The notes under the pieces: generated by a model
Seen by the model: the letters and a program-made list of their open reading frames with translations, nothing else
Told to the model about the DNA's origin: nothing
The model's database searches: none
NCBI RefSeq assembly: GCF_008477545.1
Contig: NZ_VORA01000001.1
Span: forward strand, 1,364,001 to 1,428,000
Length of the DNA: 64,000 bases
Direction of reading: 5' to 3'
DNA from: Roseibium aestuarii
GTDB lineage: Bacteria; Pseudomonadota; Alphaproteobacteria; Rhizobiales; Stappiaceae
Shown: piece by piece, positions 7,545 through 64,000 of the stretch
Position numbering within the stretch: the stretch's first letter is position 1
Layout: each line of letters begins with the position of its first letter
Made by a program: the position numbers and the translations under genes

Positions 7545-9041
7545 GTGGCAATAGAGATCTGGTCGTCTTTTGGAAATGCTTCGCGCTCGTTGGTGATACT
7601 GAAGGCTTTGGATTTGAATGTTCTCCTGCGTAAGGTCTCAAATTGCCGGGATAAGTCCTACACGAAGGAATTGGGTGTTGTCGGTCTGGACAATGAGCGC
7701 GCCCGAAAGCTGATACTGATCGGCGGGCTGGTCTGCGTGCTGATCAGCGCGCTCTGGTGCTTTTACTATGCCGTCGAGGGTCGCTGGTTCCTGTACTGCG
7801 TGAACATGCTAACGATCGGTGTCGGAGCGGCGATGGTGGCACTTGCCCTGATCGGGCGCCTTAGGCTTGCCGCGATCCTCATGAGCCATATGCTCATTGT
7901 CACGGTAACGCTCTCAAGCCTTTCTGATGTTCCCAGCGCAGAGGTGTCGCGGTCCATTCACTTAAACATGCTCGCGGTTGCTGCTGCGTCGTACTTCCTT
8001 CTGTACCGTGAAGGTTTTTATCTGCGTATTGTGCTGCCCACGCTTGCACTGGTCATCTTCTGCGCGTTCTCTCTCGATCTAAACGTGTTGAACCATCTGG
8101 GGTTCGAAGGCACGCCCGGGCGACACAAGATCGGCGTCCTCGTCAATCATTTGACCGGGATTGGTGGTGCTGCTGTGTCGATCGTTCTGATGCAATCGAA
8201 TCTCGTGGGACGTCGAACCTTTGTCGCCGACGTTCGTCGTGGTCTCCTGAGAGGCGAGTTCCATCTTCAGTTTCAGCCGCAGGTGGGTGAAGACAGACAA
8301 ATCCTGGGGGTCGAGGCGCTCTTGCGTTGGACCCATCCCGAACGAGGACAGATATCACCCGCCGACTTCATTCCTCTCGCCGAAGAAGAGGGACTGATCG
8401 TCCCCATCGGCGAATGGGTGCTCAGAACTGCCTGCGCCCAACTGGAGCGCTGGTCCCATGATCCGGCGACGGCCCATCTAACAATGGCTGTTAATGTCAG
8501 TGCCATCCAGTTCCGCCAGGATGACTTCGTTCGCCAAGTCATATCAATTGTTAATTCCAGCGGCGCTCGGCCTTCCAGATTGAAACTGGAACTTACAGAA
8601 AGTGCATTGGCCGAAGATTGGACCCGGGTGATTGCAAAGATGGAGGCTTTACGCGCTGAGTCAATCACGTGGTCGCTGGATGATTTCGGAACAGGCTATT
8701 CGTCTCTCAGCTCTCTCAAGCGGTTTCCCTTCGATCAAATCAAGATTGACCAATCTTTCGTTCGCGACCTCATCGCGGATCCACGTAATATGGCCATCGT
8801 CAAGACCATCGTTGATCTCGCTCGAAGCCTGGATTTGAATATCATTGCGGAAGGCGTTGAAACGGAAGAGCAACTTGATGCGCTAAAGAGTGCTGGCTGT
8901 TTGTTTTATCAGGGATACCTGATCAGCCGACCACTTTCGCTTGTTGATCTGAGCGCCCTTCTGGACCATCAGTCCGGATCCTACCGCGACGAAGCTCTGG
9001 ACATTGCTGCGCGTCGCATCGGGGCAGACCGGACTTTCTGA
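7545..9041 (+). CDS. Membrane-anchored EAL-domain c-di-GMP phosphodiesterase
   Basis: About six hydrophobic segments (roughly residues 57-215) form an integral-membrane sensor, followed by an EAL domain (about 225-480). Catalytic landmarks are present: VEALLRW, NVSAIQF, LELTES, DDFGTGYSS, IKIDQSF and AEGVETEEQ, so c-di-GMP hydrolysis to pGpG is expected. There is no GGDEF domain. The GTG at 7545 is the first possible start, but the first 50 residues look atypical and an internal start is likely. The codon use is visibly more AT-rich than in ldhA or the ABC-F gene, suggesting later acquisition. Confidence 0.82.
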   Translation: MAIEIWSSFGNASRSLVILKALDLNVLLRKVSNCRDKSYTKELGVVGLDNERARKLILIGGLVCVLISALWCFYYAVEGRWFLYCVNMLTIGVGAAMVALALIGRLRLAAILMSHMLIVTVTLSSLSDVPSAEVSRSIHLNMLAVAAASYFLLYREGFYLRIVLPTLALVIFCAFSLDLNVLNHLGFEGTPGRHKIGVLVNHLTGIGGAAVSIVLMQSNLVGRRTFVADVRRGLLRGEFHLQFQPQVGEDRQILGVEALLRWTHPERGQISPADFIPLAEEEGLIVPIGEWVLRTACAQLERWSHDPATAHLTMAVNVSAIQFRQDDFVRQVISIVNSSGARPSRLKLELTESALAEDWTRVIAKMEALRAESITWSLDDFGTGYSSLSSLKRFPFDQIKIDQSFVRDLIADPRNMAIVKTIVDLARSLDLNIIAEGVETEEQLDALKSAGCLFYQGYLISRPLSLVDLSALLDHQSGSYRDEALDIAARRIGADRTF

Positions 9042-44063: not shown

Positions 44064-44329
44064 GGGAAAATCTCGGGAGGAAACGAGGAGCCGGCCGCAT
44101 TCGGCCAGAATCCGGTGAGACCCTACCTATGGCGAGACTCGACGCAAAAAGGCAAGGGGAGCTGATAAGCATTGAGGCTAAGATTAGAGTTTCCGAATGG
44201 ATGGTACGATGCTATCTGTAAGAAAATTTAGGTCAAAATTTTAAAATACGTTGATATTAAGGATTTTTCACTTAATATAGAAATCACTCAGATGAATCTT
44301 TGTGAGTGTATAGTGAAAAGGCTAGCTCC

Positions 44330-45673
44330 TTGATTACCCGAATTGAAATAGATGGGTTTAAGACCTTTAAGGAGTTCTCGGCGGACCTTCAGCCATTTGT
44401 TGCTGTTGTTGGGGCTAATGCAACGGGAAAATCAAATCTATTTGATGCATTGAAGTTTCTTTCGCGTCTCGCTCAAGTTGATGTCCGGCAAGCAATGCAG
44501 GAGCTCAGGGGCGAGCCTGAAGAGCTATTTCGCCATACGTCAGCAGGTATGCAAAAGGTTATGAAGTTCGCAATTGAAGTCCTTCTGCCAACGCGTGGCG
44601 TGGATGATTTTGGTGCGTCATTTGAGACGCAGTCGCAGAGGCTTCGATATGAAATTGACGTTGAGATGCGAGATCAGCCTCATGGGATATTTGTTTGTCA
44701 TGAGGAGTGTCGCGTCATTCAAGCCAAAAACGATCGCATGGTTTTCTTGCCATCTAAGAAGATAAGTCGTTCAAGCAGAAAGCAGCCGTATCTGGAAACT
44801 GAGCAAGATATTCAAGGTCGGCCTAGGGTATTTACTATTAGGCAGGATGGAGTTGCGGAGAGCGGTGCGTCGAAGAGAGGGAACCCTTTGCAGCTGCCAG
44901 CGGCTGAGGCCTCTAGAAGTGCTCTATCAACTATTGCGACTTCAGAATTTCGCCATTTGTACGCTCTGAAAAAGCTAATCGCGCGGCCGCAATTTCTTGA
45001 AATTAATCCAGCGGAAGCACGTAAAGCCAACGACAGGTTCGAGAATAAACGCCTTAAAAGCGATGCCTCAAACTTGGCGGCGAGTTTGTCTGAAATTCAG
45101 CGTCTTTCTGCATCTGAGAACCGTCCAATGGGTGCGCTGGCTGATATCTCTGCCGACCTATCAATGTTGATTCCTCAAGTTAAGGGGATACGTGTTCTCG
45201 ATGATGCAAAAAATAGAGAGTATGCATTTGATGTAGAAGTTAGGGATGGGGCGTCATTTAGTTCGCGTGTAATTAGTGATGGGACAATTCGCTTACTTGC
45301 TCTTCTTGCAGTGATCGATGATCCTGATCGTCAGGGTATATTGTGTTTTGAGGAGCCTGAAAATGGTGTTCATGAGGGTAGGATACCAGATCTTATAAAT
45401 TTGTTGCGCGATGCGACGCAGGAGCAAGGTCCTTATGGTGATTATTTTCAAGTTCTTATGAATACACACTCTCCTGCAGTTATGAGTGCTTTAAAGGCCG
45501 AGGAAATTTTGTTTGCCGATATGGTTCGTAGCTTCGTGGGGGATGGAGCCGTAGCGCAGACGCGCACACGTATGCGTAGAATAGTCCCCGAGAAGACTCT
45601 GTTTGATGATGAGCATCATTTGTATCGTGAGAAGGTAGACGAGATTCTCCGGAATCGAGCGGGTGGAATTTGA
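44330..45673 (+). CDS. SMC/OLD-like AAA ATPase of a candidate defence pair
   Basis: ATPase of about 447 residues. MITRIEIDGFKTFKEF leads into Walker A G28-ANATGKSN; the long middle insert (about 75-250) is helical. The C-terminal lobe has SDGTIRLLALLAVI, Walker B ILCFEEPENGVHEG with E341/E342, and NTHSP (378-382) with the switch histidine, as in AAA_21/OLD-type ATPases of RloA, AbiL, PARIS and Septu-like systems. TTG 44330 has AAGG 8-9 bases upstream; GTG 44306 is the alternative. Its stop overlaps the next start (TGATG). The base composition is far more AT-rich than its neighbours, suggesting transfer. Confidence 0.85.
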   Translation: MITRIEIDGFKTFKEFSADLQPFVAVVGANATGKSNLFDALKFLSRLAQVDVRQAMQELRGEPEELFRHTSAGMQKVMKFAIEVLLPTRGVDDFGASFETQSQRLRYEIDVEMRDQPHGIFVCHEECRVIQAKNDRMVFLPSKKISRSSRKQPYLETEQDIQGRPRVFTIRQDGVAESGASKRGNPLQLPAAEASRSALSTIATSEFRHLYALKKLIARPQFLEINPAEARKANDRFENKRLKSDASNLAASLSEIQRLSASENRPMGALADISADLSMLIPQVKGIRVLDDAKNREYAFDVEVRDGASFSSRVISDGTIRLLALLAVIDDPDRQGILCFEEPENGVHEGRIPDLINLLRDATQEQGPYGDYFQVLMNTHSPAVMSALKAEEILFADMVRSFVGDGAVAQTRTRMRRIVPEKTLFDDEHHLYREKVDEILRNRAGGI

Positions 45674-46317
45674 TGTATCTTTCATGGTCAGCGTTTTATG
45701 AGGGTGTTACAGATCAAAGATATTTAAATATATTGATTCCGCGATTACTAGAGGATATAATATTAACTCGCGGGCGTAGGCCTTGCGACGTTGGTGAATT
45801 TCCTGCTGTTGAGTTTGGTATAAATAAGCGTTCTTTTGACTCTGTCGCTGATCAGATTTGTTTGAGGCGAAGGGAGTTTCACATATTATTTGTTCATGCT
45901 GATCTTGGAGGTCGGCATACCGCAGGCTCTCTCAGGCAAAGAAGAGAGCAGCTAGTGGAGATGGCATCAGCCAAATGTGGATTTGATCCGCGTAAAGCAG
46001 TTTTGCTTTCGCCGAACAGGGAACTTGAGGCGTGGGCATTGGCGGATGAGGATGCCGTCAAAACAGCTTTAGGTGTTAGGTCTCTCACGGGCAATCTAAT
46101 GCCGAGAGATGGGCGTCACGCCGAGAGATTGAGTGATCCGAAGGCGATGCTCGATGGAATTGTCAGAGGCGCTCAAACGAAAATGACCTCCTCTGGTCAG
46201 GTGCTTGTTAGGATTGCGCAGGAACAGAGATTAAGTTGCCTGAGGTCTGCCCCGTCTTTTACTTTATTCGAGAATGACTTATGTAGATGCTTAAGTTTTT
46301 GCAACTTCATTGATTGA
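45673..46317 (+). CDS. TOPRIM / DUF4276-like partner protein of the ATPase
   Basis: A 214-residue protein starting at the ATG that shares one base with the ATPase stop. It reads FYEGVTD (E10, T13, D14), like the first TOPRIM acidic motif, ILFVHADLGGRH with D77 as a likely second acidic motif, and NRELEAWALADEDAV (E117, E119, W121, D125), the ExEAWxLAD block typical of DUF4276. Proteins of this kind pair with AAA ATPases in AbiL- and PARIS-like phage defence, where the TOPRIM protein is the nuclease. The family call rests on these motifs, not a search. AT-rich like its partner. Confidence 0.72.
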   Translation: MYLSWSAFYEGVTDQRYLNILIPRLLEDIILTRGRRPCDVGEFPAVEFGINKRSFDSVADQICLRRREFHILFVHADLGGRHTAGSLRQRREQLVEMASAKCGFDPRKAVLLSPNRELEAWALADEDAVKTALGVRSLTGNLMPRDGRHAERLSDPKAMLDGIVRGAQTKMTSSGQVLVRIAQEQRLSCLRSAPSFTLFENDLCRCLSFCNFID

Positions 46318-58636: not shown

Positions 58637-59027
58637 CCGGCGAGGTTGGTGCGGCCTCTCTACCCGCACCTTTCCCTCTCCATCGTCATCCCGGCCAAGC
58701 GCAGCGCGAGCCGGGACCGGTGAGGCAGAAGCCTCTCGTGAATGTAGAAGCCTCCAGCGCCCCGGCTCACCGATCCCGGATCTTCGGGCGGGCCCTCGTC
58801 CGGGATGACGAAGGTGAGGTGAAGTAGGGGGAAGGAGCGGCGGTGAGCGGCGGGCTGGGAGCAGTTTTTGGTGACTTTTCATAGCCAACCAAGCTTGTCA
58901 TTGAGCTCATCGACTCTGTAGGCTTAGCCGCTTAAATTCATTTGATCCCTTGGAATCCACCCCGCATATTTCTTGAGGAGGACCCACTCCTGGTGGTAAT
59001 AGATGCCTAAATCTATTGCTGAGACGT
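58637..59027. other. Spacer at the left edge of the DUF262-HEPN insertion
   Basis: About 390 bases without a supported gene. The left part is a repeat element (58684-58810); the right part is AT-richer and shares its composition with the insertion. GAGGAGG at about 58973 and the inverted AGGAG/CTCCT around it may be leader elements. Confidence 0.55.
58684..58810. repeat. 127-base intergenic element with 11-bp terminal inverted repeats
   Basis: It begins CGTCATCCCGG (58684-58694) and ends CCGGGATGACG (58800-58810), exact inverses. Inside are GAGCCGGGACCGG and CGGCTCACCGATCCCGG, so it can fold as one long hairpin. Similar elements are common in Rhizobiales spacers. Confidence 0.75.
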
Positions 59028-60146
59028 ATGGAGAGAATCTTGTCGCTTTCGGAAGAGGTCCAGGCTGCGCGGAAGAACGTGGTCACTGATGGCTACGATA
59101 TGTCCCTAGGAGAAATCCTCAACCTTTATCGTGATGAGGAGCTCCTTATCGACCCAGTCTTTCAGCGACTTTTTAGGTGGGACGACGAAAGGAAGACGCG
59201 GTTCATTGAATCGATCATATTGGGTATTCCCATTCCGTCGATTTTCGTGTCGCAAAAGGACAACGGCGTGTGGGAGCTTGTCGATGGTCTGCAACGCATA
59301 TCTACTGTTTTGCAGCTAGTCGGTGAGTTGAAAGGTGAGGTCGCCGAAGCTAAGGGGGCGTTGGTTCTGAATGGTACCCGGTTGCTGCCGAGTTTGAACG
59401 GTAAGCGCTGGAAAGAAAGCGCACCTGATGCGGGTGACGGACTTGGGACAGCGCTTCAAATTGAAATCAAGCGCGCGCGGGTGCGGGTCGAAATCCTGAA
59501 AGCCGAAAGCGATGCTGCGGCCAAGTTCGAGTTGTTCCAGCGCCTCAACACCGGGGGGGTTGGCCTTTCCGAACAGGAAGTCAGAAATAGCATGGCTGTT
59601 TCGATCAACCGGCCGTTCTATGACTGGATGATCGACCTAGCGAATGACCCAAATTTCATCACCACAACCCAGCAAACTGAAGCAGCTCTAAAGTCTCAAG
59701 CTGGGGTTGAGCTGGTATTGCGGTTCCACGCGTTCCGGAACGTTCCGTACCAGTCAGGATTGGATGTTCACGAGTATTTGGACCAAGCGCTGATCACAAT
59801 GGCCAGCGACGGCACCTTCGACCTTCACACCCGAGGTGAGGAGTTTAACCTTACTTTTCAGTACATAAACGATGCCCTTGGTTCAGATGCATTTAAGCGG
59901 TGGAATGGCAATATCTTCAGCGGGAAGTTTCTGATGTCGGTTTTCGAGGTCATATCGAAGGGAGTTGCTGATAACCTAGAGGTGATGCGGCAGATGACAG
60001 ACGAGGAACGCAACACCTTCATTTCGAGCAGGGCAAAAAACCTTTGGCGGAACGAAATTTTCTCGCAGAATTCTGGCGCTGGTGTTCGCGGGACAACACG
60101 GTTATCGAGACTACTGCCTTTGGCGACCGAAGTTTTTCAGCAGTGA
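59028..60146 (+). CDS. DUF262 protein of a candidate defence pair
   Basis: A 372-residue DUF262 (GmrS-like) protein. LLIDPVFQRLFRW (residues 39-51) and LVDGLQRISTV (84-94) are the two DUF262 core motifs, followed by FQRLNTGGVGLSEQEVRNS. The C-terminal DUF1524 HNH nuclease of GmrSD is missing, so the protein ends soon after the DUF262 helical part. DUF262 domains have a ParB/Srx-like fold and bind or hydrolyse nucleotides in phage defence systems. ATG 59028 is chosen over TTG 59016. AT-rich compared with both flanks. The HEPN gene follows after 3 bases. Confidence 0.82.
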   Translation: MERILSLSEEVQAARKNVVTDGYDMSLGEILNLYRDEELLIDPVFQRLFRWDDERKTRFIESIILGIPIPSIFVSQKDNGVWELVDGLQRISTVLQLVGELKGEVAEAKGALVLNGTRLLPSLNGKRWKESAPDAGDGLGTALQIEIKRARVRVEILKAESDAAAKFELFQRLNTGGVGLSEQEVRNSMAVSINRPFYDWMIDLANDPNFITTTQQTEAALKSQAGVELVLRFHAFRNVPYQSGLDVHEYLDQALITMASDGTFDLHTRGEEFNLTFQYINDALGSDAFKRWNGNIFSGKFLMSVFEVISKGVADNLEVMRQMTDEERNTFISSRAKNLWRNEIFSQNSGAGVRGTTRLSRLLPLATEVFQQ

Positions 60147-60149
60147 GGG

Positions 60150-60821
60150 ATGGCCGTGGCGGATATCCGTACCCTCGACCAGCTGCAAGACGCGTTAGAC
60201 CAGGAAATGGCGTGGCGAGTTAAGGAAGTCAAAGCGTTCAGCGTCGCGGCGAAAACTAATGGCCCTGAGCGTCGCCATTTTATCAGGGCTGGGGTCGCGT
60301 TATTGTATGCTCATTGGGAGGGGTTCATAAAAGCCTCCTCCGAAATGTATCTTAGGTTTGTCGATAGCCGTGGACTTAAATACAGCGAGTTAAAGTCGTG
60401 TTTTTCCGTTTTTGGGTTAAAATCCAAGCTGCAGACGCTAGCACAATCTCGCCAGTCTTCGGCCAATATTGATGCATTTGATTTTATTCTAGCTGAGCTT
60501 GAGAGTCGGTCTAAATTAAAGCTAGGTTCTGCAATAAACACAGAATCTAACTTAACTTCAAAAGTTTTCAGTAATATTGCGTTGTCGTTGGACATCGATC
60601 TCGGCAGATACATCTCGCGATACAACCTGATCGACGAAAGCTTGGTTCATAGGCGTAACAGGATCGCGCATGGAGAGTTTATCGATATCGGTGGTTCTGA
60701 GTTCGGTGTTCTTCTTGATGAAATTCTTAAAATAATGCGAGAATATAAAACAGATCTTGAAAATGCCGCATCAACTGAATCTTATAAGCGGAACTCTGAA
60801 AAAATTAAGCTTAGAAATTGA
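60150..60821 (+). CDS. HEPN-domain protein (MAE_28990-like), putative RNase partner
   Basis: A 223-residue, largely helical protein. LDQLQDALDQEMAWRVKEVKAFS and FIRAGVALLYAHWEGFIKASSEMYLRFVDSRG (about residues 8-75) match the HEPN_MAE_28990 pattern, and HRRNRIAHGEF carries R169-x4-H174, the conserved HEPN RNase motif. HEPN proteins of this group sit with DUF262 and other defence genes. It starts 3 bases after the DUF262 stop, with GAGGG before it, so the two are a unit. Strongly AT-rich in the second half. Confidence 0.78.
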   Translation: MAVADIRTLDQLQDALDQEMAWRVKEVKAFSVAAKTNGPERRHFIRAGVALLYAHWEGFIKASSEMYLRFVDSRGLKYSELKSCFSVFGLKSKLQTLAQSRQSSANIDAFDFILAELESRSKLKLGSAINTESNLTSKVFSNIALSLDIDLGRYISRYNLIDESLVHRRNRIAHGEFIDIGGSEFGVLLDEILKIMREYKTDLENAASTESYKRNSEKIKLRN

Positions 60822-60902
60822 AGACTTAATGGTTGATATATTTTTATTTTCATCTCGCTTGATCGATCATAACCGTACGTTTTCTGTTCCCACCTAAACA
60901 AA

Positions 60903-60941
60903 CAAAAACCCGCCCGATCCTCTCTGATCGCGCGGGTTTTT
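60903..60941. terminator. Bidirectional terminator between the HEPN gene and nrdJ
   Basis: AAAAACCCGC-C-CGATC, a short loop, GATCG-C-GCGGGTTTTT. Runs of A and T on both sides allow action on both strands between the two convergent genes. Confidence 0.85.
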
Positions 60942-61022
60942 CCGTTTTCCAGGCCCGTTTGAGCCGCCTATTGCCCCAGATCGCTCATCCTGTGCGATCC
61001 GGGACCACGTTAACCCCGCCGC

Positions 61023-64000
61023 TCAGCTGCAGCCGCTGGTGGAGCCGCAGGTGTCGCATTTCAGGCAGGTGCCGTTGCGCACCATGGTGAAATTGGCACA
61101 TTCCGGGCAGCTTTCCCCCTCGTAGCCCTTCATCCGCGCCTGGGCGATCTGCTGGGCGGTGGAGGATTTCGGCGCGCTCGCCGTACCCACCGACGTTTCC
61201 ACCTTGACGCTGGTCACCTCTGCCGAGCGGGCAAAGGCGGTGGCCACCGCCGAGGTCTGCAGGGCAGGGGAGGAGAGCGTCTGGCCAGCGACGGCCTGGG
61301 TCAGCGTGCCGGCCGGTTCGGTGGCCGAGATCAGGCGGAACCGCTCCGTCTGCCCGCGCACCAGCCCGTGGGAGACCACGCCGCTGTCCTTCACCGGATC
61401 GGAGCCGGCCGCCGTCACCGTGCCGGTGGAGCCGAACCGCTCCGGCGGAACATGGGCGAGATCATGCCGGCCGAGATAGGAGACGGCGAGCTCGCGGAAC
61501 ACATAGTCGAGGATCGACGTGGCGTTCTTGATGGCGTCATTGCCCTGGACCATGCCCGCCGGCTCGAACTTGGTGAAGGTGAAGGCGTCGACATATTCCT
61601 CCAGCGGCACCCCGTATTGCAGGCCGAGCGAGACGGAAATGGCGAAGTTGTTGATGAAGGCACGCAGGGCCGAGCCTTCCTTGTTCATGTCGAGGAAGAT
61701 CTCGCCCAGGCGCCCGTCGTCATATTCGCCGGTGCGCAGGAAGATGGTGTGCCCGCCGATCTTGGCCTTCTGGGTGTAGCCCTTGCGCCGGGTCGGCAGC
61801 TTTTCCTGGGCGCGCACGGCCCGCTCCACGATCCGCTCCACGATGCGTTCGGCCACCACCTCGGCCCGCGCCGCCATGGGCCTGGCGGCCAGGGTCTCGA
61901 CGGCCTCGTCCTCGTCTTCGTCCTCGTCGGCCAGAAGCTGGGCGTTGAGGGGCTGGGACAGCTTGGACCCGTCGCGGTAGAGCGCATTGGCCTTCAGCGC
62001 CAGCTTCCACGACAGCATGTAGGCCTCTTCGCAGTCCTTCACCGTGGCATCATTGGGCATGTTGATCGTCTTGGAGATCGCGCCCGAGATGAAGGGCTGG
62101 GCGGCGGCCATCATGCGGATGTGGCTTTCCACCGAGAGGAAGCGCTTGCCGATCTTGCCGCAGGGGTTGGCGCAGTCGAAGACCGGCAGGTGCTCGGCCT
62201 TCAGGAAGGGCGCGCCTTCCAGCGTCATCGCCCCGCAGACATGGGTGTTGGCGGCCTCGATCTCGGACCTGGAGAAGCCGAGGAAGGGCAGCAGCTCGAA
62301 GGCGCCATCCTCCAGCTGCTCAGCGGAGACGCCGAGGGCGGCCATCTGGTCGTCGCCCAGGGTCCAGCGGTTGAAGACGAACTTGATGTCAAAGGCCGAC
62401 TTCAGCGCGCCCTTCAGCTTGGCAAGGCTCTCCTCGGTGAAGCCCTTGGCCTTGAGGCTGCCCGGATTGATGGCCGGCGCCTGTTCCAGCGAGCCGTGGC
62501 CCACCGCATAGGCCTCGATCTCGGCGATCTGGGACGGGGAATAGCCGAGCACCTCGAGCGCTTCCGGCACGGCCCGGTTGATGATCTTGAAATAGCCGCC
62601 GCCGGCCAGCTTCTTGAACTTCACCAGGGCGAAGTCCGGCTCGATGCCCGTGGTGTCGCAGTCCATCACCAGGCCGATGGTGCCCGTCGGCGCGATCACC
62701 GAGACCTGGGCGTTGCGATAGCCGTGCTTTTCGCCCAGCTCCAGCGCCTTGTCCCAGGAGAGCTTTGCCCGCTCGATGAGGGTCTTGTCCGGGCAGGAGG
62801 CATGGTCGAGGGCAACGGGCAGGGTCGACAGACCCTCGTAGCCGCTGGTCTCCCCGTGGGCGGCACGGCGGTGGTTGCGGATCACCCGCAGCATGTGCGG
62901 CGCATTGTCCGCATAGCCCGGGAAGGCGCCGAGCTCTCCGGCCATTTCGGCCGAGGTGGCATAGCAGACACCGGTCATGATGGCGCTCAGCGCCCCGCAG
63001 AGCGCCCGGCCCTCGTCGCTGTCATAGGAAATGCCGGAGGTCATCAGCAACCCGCCGATATTGGCATAGCCGAGCCCCAGGGTGCGGAACTTGTAGGAAA
63101 GCTCGGCGATTTCCTTGGAGGGGAACTGGGCCATCAGCACGGAGATTTCCAGCACGATGGTCCACAGACGCACCGCATGCTCATAGGCCTCCACGTCGAA
63201 GGACCGGTCGGCGCGGCGGAACTGCATCAGGTTCAGGGACGCCAGGTTGCAGGCCGTGTCGTCCAGGAACATGTATTCCGAGCAGGGGTTGGAGGCGCGG
63301 ATCTCGCCGGACGCCGGGCAGGTGTGCCAGTCGTTGATGGTGGTGTGATACTGCAGCCCCGGATCGGCGGAGGCCCAGGCGGCATAGCCGATCTGCTCCC
63401 ACAGTTCCTTTGCCTTCAGCGTCTTCAGCACCTTGCCGTCGCGCCGGGCGGTCAGTTCCCAGTCGCCATCGTCGAGCACGGCCTTCAGGAAGCCGTCGGT
63501 CACGCGCACCGAATTGTTGGAGTTCTGGCCGGCCACGGTCAGATAGGCTTCCGAATCCCAGTCCGTGTTGTAGGTGGGGAATTCGATCTTGGTGAAGCCC
63601 TGGCGGGCAAACTGGATCACGCGCTGGATGTAGTTGTCGGGCACCAGCATCTTCTTGGCGGCCCGGATCTCGCGCTTCAGCGCCGGGTTCTTGGCCGGGT
63701 CGAAGCACTCTCCCTTGTCGGCCTCGCAATTGACGCAGGCCTTCATGATCAGGTTCAGGTGCTTCTGGCAGATCTTCGATCCGGTGACGAGGGCGGCAAC
63801 CTTCTGCTCTTCCTTCACCTTCCAGTTGATGTAGTCCTCGATATCCGGATGGTCCACGTCGACGACGACCATCTTGGCCGCACGCCGGGTGGTGCCGCCG
63901 GACTTGATAGCGCCCGCTGCCCGGTCGCCGATCTTGAGGAAGCTCATCAGGCCGGAGGACTTGCCGCCGCCCGCCAGCCGTTCGCCTTCGCCGCGCACGT
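61023..64000 (-). CDS. nrdJ: Vitamin B12-dependent ribonucleotide reductase NrdJ (N-terminal part beyond window)
   Basis: Class II reductase that makes deoxynucleotides with adenosylcobalamin, independent of oxygen. About 992 C-terminal residues are in the window; the family is near 1200, so roughly the first fifth is missing at the right edge. Recognisable parts: [30 protein letters not shown], the [35 protein letters not shown] barrel segment, and the C-terminal zinc-ribbon [22 protein letters not shown]. An acidic stretch [11 protein letters not shown] lies between domains. There is no class Ia reductase in the window. Confidence 0.94.

Follow-up and report, generated by a model that had tools for sequence, protein, structure and literature searches.

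Two adjacent genes and their surroundings

We analysed a 64,000-nucleotide stretch of the Roseibium aestuarii genome (hereafter the window, meaning the whole of this stretch) and identified within it two adjacent forward-strand genes, encoding a DUF262 protein and a HEPN protein (Table 1). The open reading frame of the first begins with a TTG codon at 59016, contains the ATG at 59028 and stops at 60146. A previous sequence-only reading had placed DUF262 and HEPN frames at 59028-60821 with three bases between them, and both positions are borne out here. In homologous pairs, stop and start overlap by exactly 4 nt in 22 of 81 cases, with starts called mechanically.

Table 1. Coordinates of the two-gene unit, its motifs and the adjacent repeats, numbered within the window.
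Feature	Position	Strand	Remarks
Palindromic intergenic repeat left of the unit	58660..58834		arms 58660-58702 / 58792-58834
DUF262 gene	59028..60146	+	372 aa from ATG; GmrSD_N, predicted ParB/Srx-like
DPVFQR motif	59151..59168	+	P47 and Q50 invariant, R51 nearly so (41 sequences)
DGLQR motif (DUF262 nucleotide-pocket motif)	59283..59297	+	residue 90 onward, numbered from the TTG start
Intergenic gap, DUF262 stop to HEPN start	60147..60149	+	3 nt
HEPN gene	60150..60821	+	223 aa; Rx4H = R169/H174 in RRNRIAHGE
Inverted repeat between HEPN gene and nrdJ	60904..60941		congener homology ends about here

The two genes had been described as AT-rich against GC-rich flanks, and this is upheld by their composition, with a GC content of 51.7% for the DUF262 gene and 43.9% for the HEPN gene against 64.2% for the window. 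GC at third codon positions is 0.61 and 0.46, respectively, compared with 0.86 in the flanking aldehyde dehydrogenase (ALDH) gene and 0.90 in nrdJ, the metabolic genes on either side. A scan of the 64 kb in segments of 1794 nt, at 100-nt steps, identified just two stretches below 53% GC, these being the DUF262-HEPN unit and a pair of genes matching HEC-01. The latter, at 44306-46317, consists of an AAA_21 ATPase gene (HEC-01A, 6.8e-143) followed directly by a gene of 215 aa (HEC-01B, 1.4e-52); lying 13 kb left of the unit, the two are candidates for a second defence pair.

The repeat noted earlier to the left of the unit is not specific to it: a 201-nt query (58680-58880) gave 36 matches in the same genome, itself included, and this dispersed element was therefore rejected as a mark of insertion. 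The inverted repeat on the other side is likely to be a shared intrinsic terminator. Homology of the nrdJ side, as detected by blastn, extends to 60901-60905 in three of ten congeners and to 60958-61025 in the other seven. For ALDH there were zero hits across 29 congener nrdJ loci of 4 kb and, in 30 longer flanks, a single hit at 32% identity; three ALDH matches at 79-81% identity (G054, G018 and G002) are located on contigs other than those holding the nrdJ matches of the same genomes. As ALDH does not adjoin nrdJ in the congeners inspected, an empty ALDH-nrdJ site was not seen in these 29 loci and 30 flanks. The proposed insertion between ALDH and nrdJ is thus supported on the nrdJ side alone, by its blastn edges. 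No tRNA gene was found within the 64-kb window.

The 3' flank of nrdJ differs from one congener to another, and some have defence genes there, such as HEC-01A (9.5e-131, L121), SspA and SspF (5.6e-101 and 6.7e-172, L122) and LmuB (3.1e-15, L117), although six of ten proteins from eight such flanks were unmatched in PADLOC. Across ten congener nrdJ loci, 97 ORFs (mostly of the 3' flank, but including nrdJ ORFs and, in L118 and L121, five from the 5' side) matched 85 PADLOC models, and 85 ORFs from the 5' flanks of eight of those genomes matched four, with model counts not equating to protein counts. In the 5' flanks, the hits to SspA/DndA (seven members) probably represent cysteine desulfurases with housekeeping roles. 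Downstream of nrdJ, the genus thus appears to have a defence hotspot (L117-L126). Beside nrdJ of another congener (L243, 12844-14088) we noted an ORF with a CD-NTase-like GSxxxGT...DxD pattern, by motif match alone.

Around the DUF262-HEPN loci themselves (22 of the 44 suitable ones), 130 neighbouring ORFs gave matches to 173 PADLOC models at 1e-8. We claim no enrichment of defence genes near the pair, because one protein matches many models and the members are inseparable; nor can the 97-ORF nrdJ set serve as a neutral control, having itself matched 85 models.

The DUF262 and HEPN proteins

The DUF262 protein matches Pfam PF03235 (3e-24; 86.7 bits against a curated cut-off of 33.2). NCBIfam gave zero matches at E <= 1. 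DUF1524 is absent from both proteins in Pfam at E <= 1, and neither contains an HNH/DUF1524 or other DNase domain by this search. D90, G91, Q93 and R94 of the DGxQR motif are invariant in all 41 DUF262 sequences aligned. The sequence-only reading, which had reported DPVFQR and DGLQR in a protein without a DUF1524 HNH domain, is thereby confirmed both in the sequence and by Pfam. Among PADLOC models the best match is NsnA (7.3e-57), which we take to be the DUF262 gene of Menshen (NsnABC), ahead of PD-T4-2_A (2.4e-32), and NsnA is likewise the best model for the DUF262 proteins of three distant relatives. In PHROGs, the protein matches phrog_2598 (5.3e-75), a family of unknown function.

The predicted model of the DUF262 protein (pLDDT 91.4) finds its nearest structures in BrxU, SspE, DndI and ParB, supporting a ParB/Srx-like DUF262 fold. 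By sequence, a DUF262 profile gave weak matches to PDB chains 20yv (7.6e-5), 9jfl (3.2e-4) and SspE (0.44), none of which was recovered with the single sequence. DUF262 proteins bind and hydrolyse nucleotides, several of them acting on modified DNA, and their best-known role is as components of systems for phage DNA detection and for DNA cutting or nicking. What is known of the family regarding nucleotides and modified DNA comes partly from excerpts of PMC10952713.

The HEPN protein matches Pfam PF18735 (3.7e-34; 118.7 bits against a curated cut-off of 28.4) and PF18737 (4.2e-31; 109.2 bits against 26.8), as well as phrog_22325 (1.1e-51), again of unknown function. It gave zero hits in PADLOC 2.0.0 at E <= 1; HEPN proteins of six of seven relatives were also unmatched, and the seventh gave a weak match to Cas13a. 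A PADLOC-based survey would therefore probably miss such pairs or label only half of each. The Rx4H motif, reported earlier as intact (R169, H174), is confirmed and conserved: neither residue varies among 121 close sequences, of which the window protein is one, and the motif is present in all 82 of a wider set from genomes and plasmids (77 as RNxxAH and five as variants) and in 69 of 70 viral matches, the exception being L216.

Structure prediction, which had been suggested as a check on both proteins, supports a helical HEPN fold for the second (pLDDT 93.4). The best VIA-align matches of this model are HEPN-domain structures, and AbiV and HEPN toxins appear among the matches, with the caveat that unrelated designed helical bundles score near some HEPN rows. 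Foldseek gave zero matches for it in PDB and BFVD at E <= 0.001; the top-ranked BFVD entry, a MAE-28990-like HEPN from a phage, reached 1.1e-3. The alignment used at the structure stage held 58 of 80 loci (after a length and stop filter), seven database proteins and the window protein; a search of PDB chains with the HEPN profile gave none at E <= 1 and just chance-looking rows at E <= 10. HEPN proteins with Rx4H are commonly RNases, active as dimers, although the fold by itself is not proof of RNase activity.

Pairing across genomes, plasmids and viral contigs

We investigated how consistently the two genes occur together, a survey that the sequence-only reading had proposed. In species genomes, a DUF262 match was found directly upstream of HEPN, on the same strand, in 79 of the best 80 of 283 confirmed relatives; at one locus (L046) the contig starts within this match. 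The DUF262 frame is broken into pieces in L060, L061 and perhaps L069. At the sole exception, L039 from Limnohabitans (about 7800-8654), an intact HEPN frame follows a C-terminal DUF262 remnant, showing that HEPN may persist without a full DUF262 partner. To lessen best-hit bias, an evenly drawn phylum sample of 398 genomes was also searched; it contained nine HEPN carriers including the window's own, and DUF262 was directly upstream in all of the other eight, one of which (L258) is a weak match with an internal stop.

On viral contigs, DUF262 was directly upstream at 12 of 12 HEPN loci. From the DUF262 side, a HEPN-profile match was identified downstream in 70 of the best 80 of 83 viral loci, several of which are near-duplicates. 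These 70 include L219, in which the HEPN match lies about 500 nt downstream, past a partial DUF262 match, and L216, in which it lacks Rx4H. Ten loci were unpaired: five are close to where a contig ends (about 200 nt away at most), four are followed by a frame of 226-242 aa with Rx4H that the profile does not match, and L220 has a different frame downstream. HEPN was also identified in six plasmid records, with DUF262 upstream in all three of those inspected (as two annotated pieces in L004). A tblastn search of phage records with HEPN gave zero matches at 1e-5, even though the PHROGs family matches at 1.1e-51.

Distances between DUF262 proteins were correlated with those between their HEPN partners (mirror-tree r = 0.87, maximum of 1000 permutations 0.146) across the 75 of 79 pairs that passed a length filter; shared ancestry contributes to this value and is not removed by permutation. 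The adjacency of DUF262 and HEPN is thus that of a real unit, a near-obligate pair.

Within the genus, a close copy was found in the window's own genome alone among 25, with one other weak hit (1e-8, 28% identity). Low GC, rarity within the genus and the plasmid and viral carriers are signs of mobility; the pair is probably mobile, and we infer that it was acquired here by transfer. Many viral or prophage contigs (L130-L221) carry the pair, and phages may therefore use it against rivals.

Function and relation to known systems

We consider it likely that the two genes form a cassette gained by horizontal transfer and directed against phages or other mobile DNA. Its action would resemble that of PD-T4-2, but its type would be a separate and uncharacterised one. 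The DUF262 protein would bind a nucleotide at the DGLQR pocket, sense infection, perhaps through modified phage DNA, and release or activate the HEPN protein, which would act as an Rx4H RNase, probably as a dimer, cutting RNA and stopping the infected cell. A DUF262 sensor or NTPase gating a HEPN RNase, with abortive action, is probably the arrangement. The genes, their motifs, the predicted folds, the near-obligate pairing and the carriage on plasmid and viral contigs are what the analysis shows; the sensing step, RNase activity, dimer and abortive outcome are each proposed. The defence role, which the sequence-only reading had put forward, is likely correct by resemblance to PD-T4-2, the link being the homology of the DUF262 protein to that of PD-T4-2-type loci in which the genes are likewise ordered and the partner has Rx4H. 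Points against this explanation are that the HEPN protein has no PADLOC hit and no significant profile match to the PD-T4-2_B homologues, that the flanking genes are metabolic, and that L216 lacks Rx4H. For a stronger version, in which a widespread phage-borne type has a ParB/Srx-like DUF262 NTPase gating a MAE_28990/RiboL-PSP HEPN RNase that was recruited, or diverged, independently of that of PD-T4-2, we see an even chance.

If this is correct, a DUF262 module tied one-to-one to HEPN could drive an RNA-based shutdown rather than the cutting of DNA, and the same DUF262 sensor would be paired with different effectors in different systems. The tight pairing and viral carriage make the pair a clear experimental target.

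A type II toxin-antitoxin module, in which HEPN would be a constitutive RNase toxin and DUF262 its antitoxin, kept mainly for the maintenance of plasmids and prophages, is unlikely. The tight gene order and the carriage on plasmids and viral contigs would accord with it, as would the HEPN toxins with MNT or ParA/Soj-like partners described in excerpts of PMC3710099; however, L039, with HEPN intact beside a C-terminal DUF262 remnant, is unexpected for an essential antitoxin and, as one case, mildly disfavours DUF262 as an obligatory one. The DUF262 protein, moreover, retains the nucleotide-pocket motif and is similar to proteins of restriction systems (BrxU, SspE and DndI). That same resemblance to DNA-directed defence might suggest type IV-like restriction, with a complex that cuts modified phage DNA directly, infected cells that survive, and HEPN as a scaffold or DNA-acting nuclease, and excerpts of PMC10952713 raise the possibility that an associated nuclease is regulated by the NTPase activity of DUF262. 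We regard this as quite improbable, given that Pfam finds neither HNH/DUF1524 nor another DNase domain in either protein, and that Rx4H, typical of HEPN RNases, is present in all 82 HEPN proteins of the wider set.

As in AbiV and HEPN-MNT pairs, the HEPN protein belongs to a two-gene unit, but the partners in those systems differ from DUF262, as the titles of the structure entries also indicate. The DUF262 fold and DGxQR motif are shared with GmrSD, BrxU, SspE and DndI. GmrSD, BrxU and SspE carry DUF1524 according to excerpts of PMC10952713, whereas the window pair is without it, the likely effector being the separate HEPN protein; DUF1524 is absent at E <= 1 from the DUF262, HEPN and ALDH proteins, and the other neighbour is nrdJ. 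DndI, by the title of its structure entry, is part of a phosphorothioation system, unlike the window pair. Menshen, to which excerpts of PMC10952713 assign a DUF262 gene alongside a predicted OLD nuclease, offers the closest DUF262 model (NsnA), but the possibility that the unit represents Menshen in a decayed or alternative form is very remote, and we rejected filing it as such: it is flanked by ALDH and nrdJ rather than an ATPase or OLD-type partner, neither NsnB nor NsnC adjoins it, the HEPN protein has no PADLOC hit, and 79 of the best 80 loci, as well as all eight of the phylum sample, hold this two-gene arrangement.

The earlier view that the architecture is new does not stand: DUF262 with HEPN is already known from PD-T4-2 (PMC9519451, PMC10952713, both in excerpt) and from HEPN operon listings of 2013. 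In the latter (Anantharaman et al. 2013, PMC3710099), table entries read 'Ribo L-PSP-HEPN ... operon with ParB' and 'MAE_28990 ... in operon with a ParB nuclease and DNA methylase genes', the same HEPN families and class of operon partner as here, given in those entries as context without mechanism or test. The HEPN type of the window appears to be without a published test, none having been found for DUF262 with this type in excerpts of the openly licensed PMC literature. A survey of enterobacterial DUF262 clusters (PMC12373910) covers GmrSD architectures, the term 'HEPN' being absent from the main text as excerpted, and excerpts of PMC12839542, PMC9122126 and PMC11291487 contain nothing on the DUF262-HEPN pair.

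The nearest system by architecture is PD-T4-2. Identified in E. coli ECOR65 (Vassallo et al. 2022), it protects E. coli from T4; T4 plaquing rises strongly when it is deleted from ECOR65, and it also works in K-12 (excerpts of PMC9519451). Its components are given as DUF262 and a PF18735 HEPN in excerpts of PMC10952713, although the three PD-T4-2_B homologues that we identified in the 398-genome sample had no Pfam HEPN hits. These homologues (165-169 aa, with Rx4H) all had DUF262 directly upstream, so that in both systems a DUF262 gene is followed, almost without a gap, by a gene for an Rx4H protein. The DUF262 proteins are homologous (hhalign of our profile against those beside PD-T4-2_B matches: probability 99.9, E 4.5e-33, over most of the length). 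The HEPN protein of the window, in contrast, is 223 aa long and matches PF18735/PF18737; it aligned with the PD-T4-2_B homologues without significance (probability 0.28%, E 0.22, touching the Rx4H stretch alone) and was unmatched by the PD-T4-2_B model at E <= 1, and its own genome likewise has no match to this model (PDLC04028) at E <= 0.001. A distant blastn search of E. coli genomes with a Buttiauxella pair found none. As its DUF262 protein, despite matching PD-T4-2_A, is closer to NsnA among PADLOC models, and its HEPN protein misses PD-T4-2_B, we rejected filing the pair as PD-T4-2 itself; it is best read as an uncharacterised, PD-T4-2-like sister type with a different HEPN protein.
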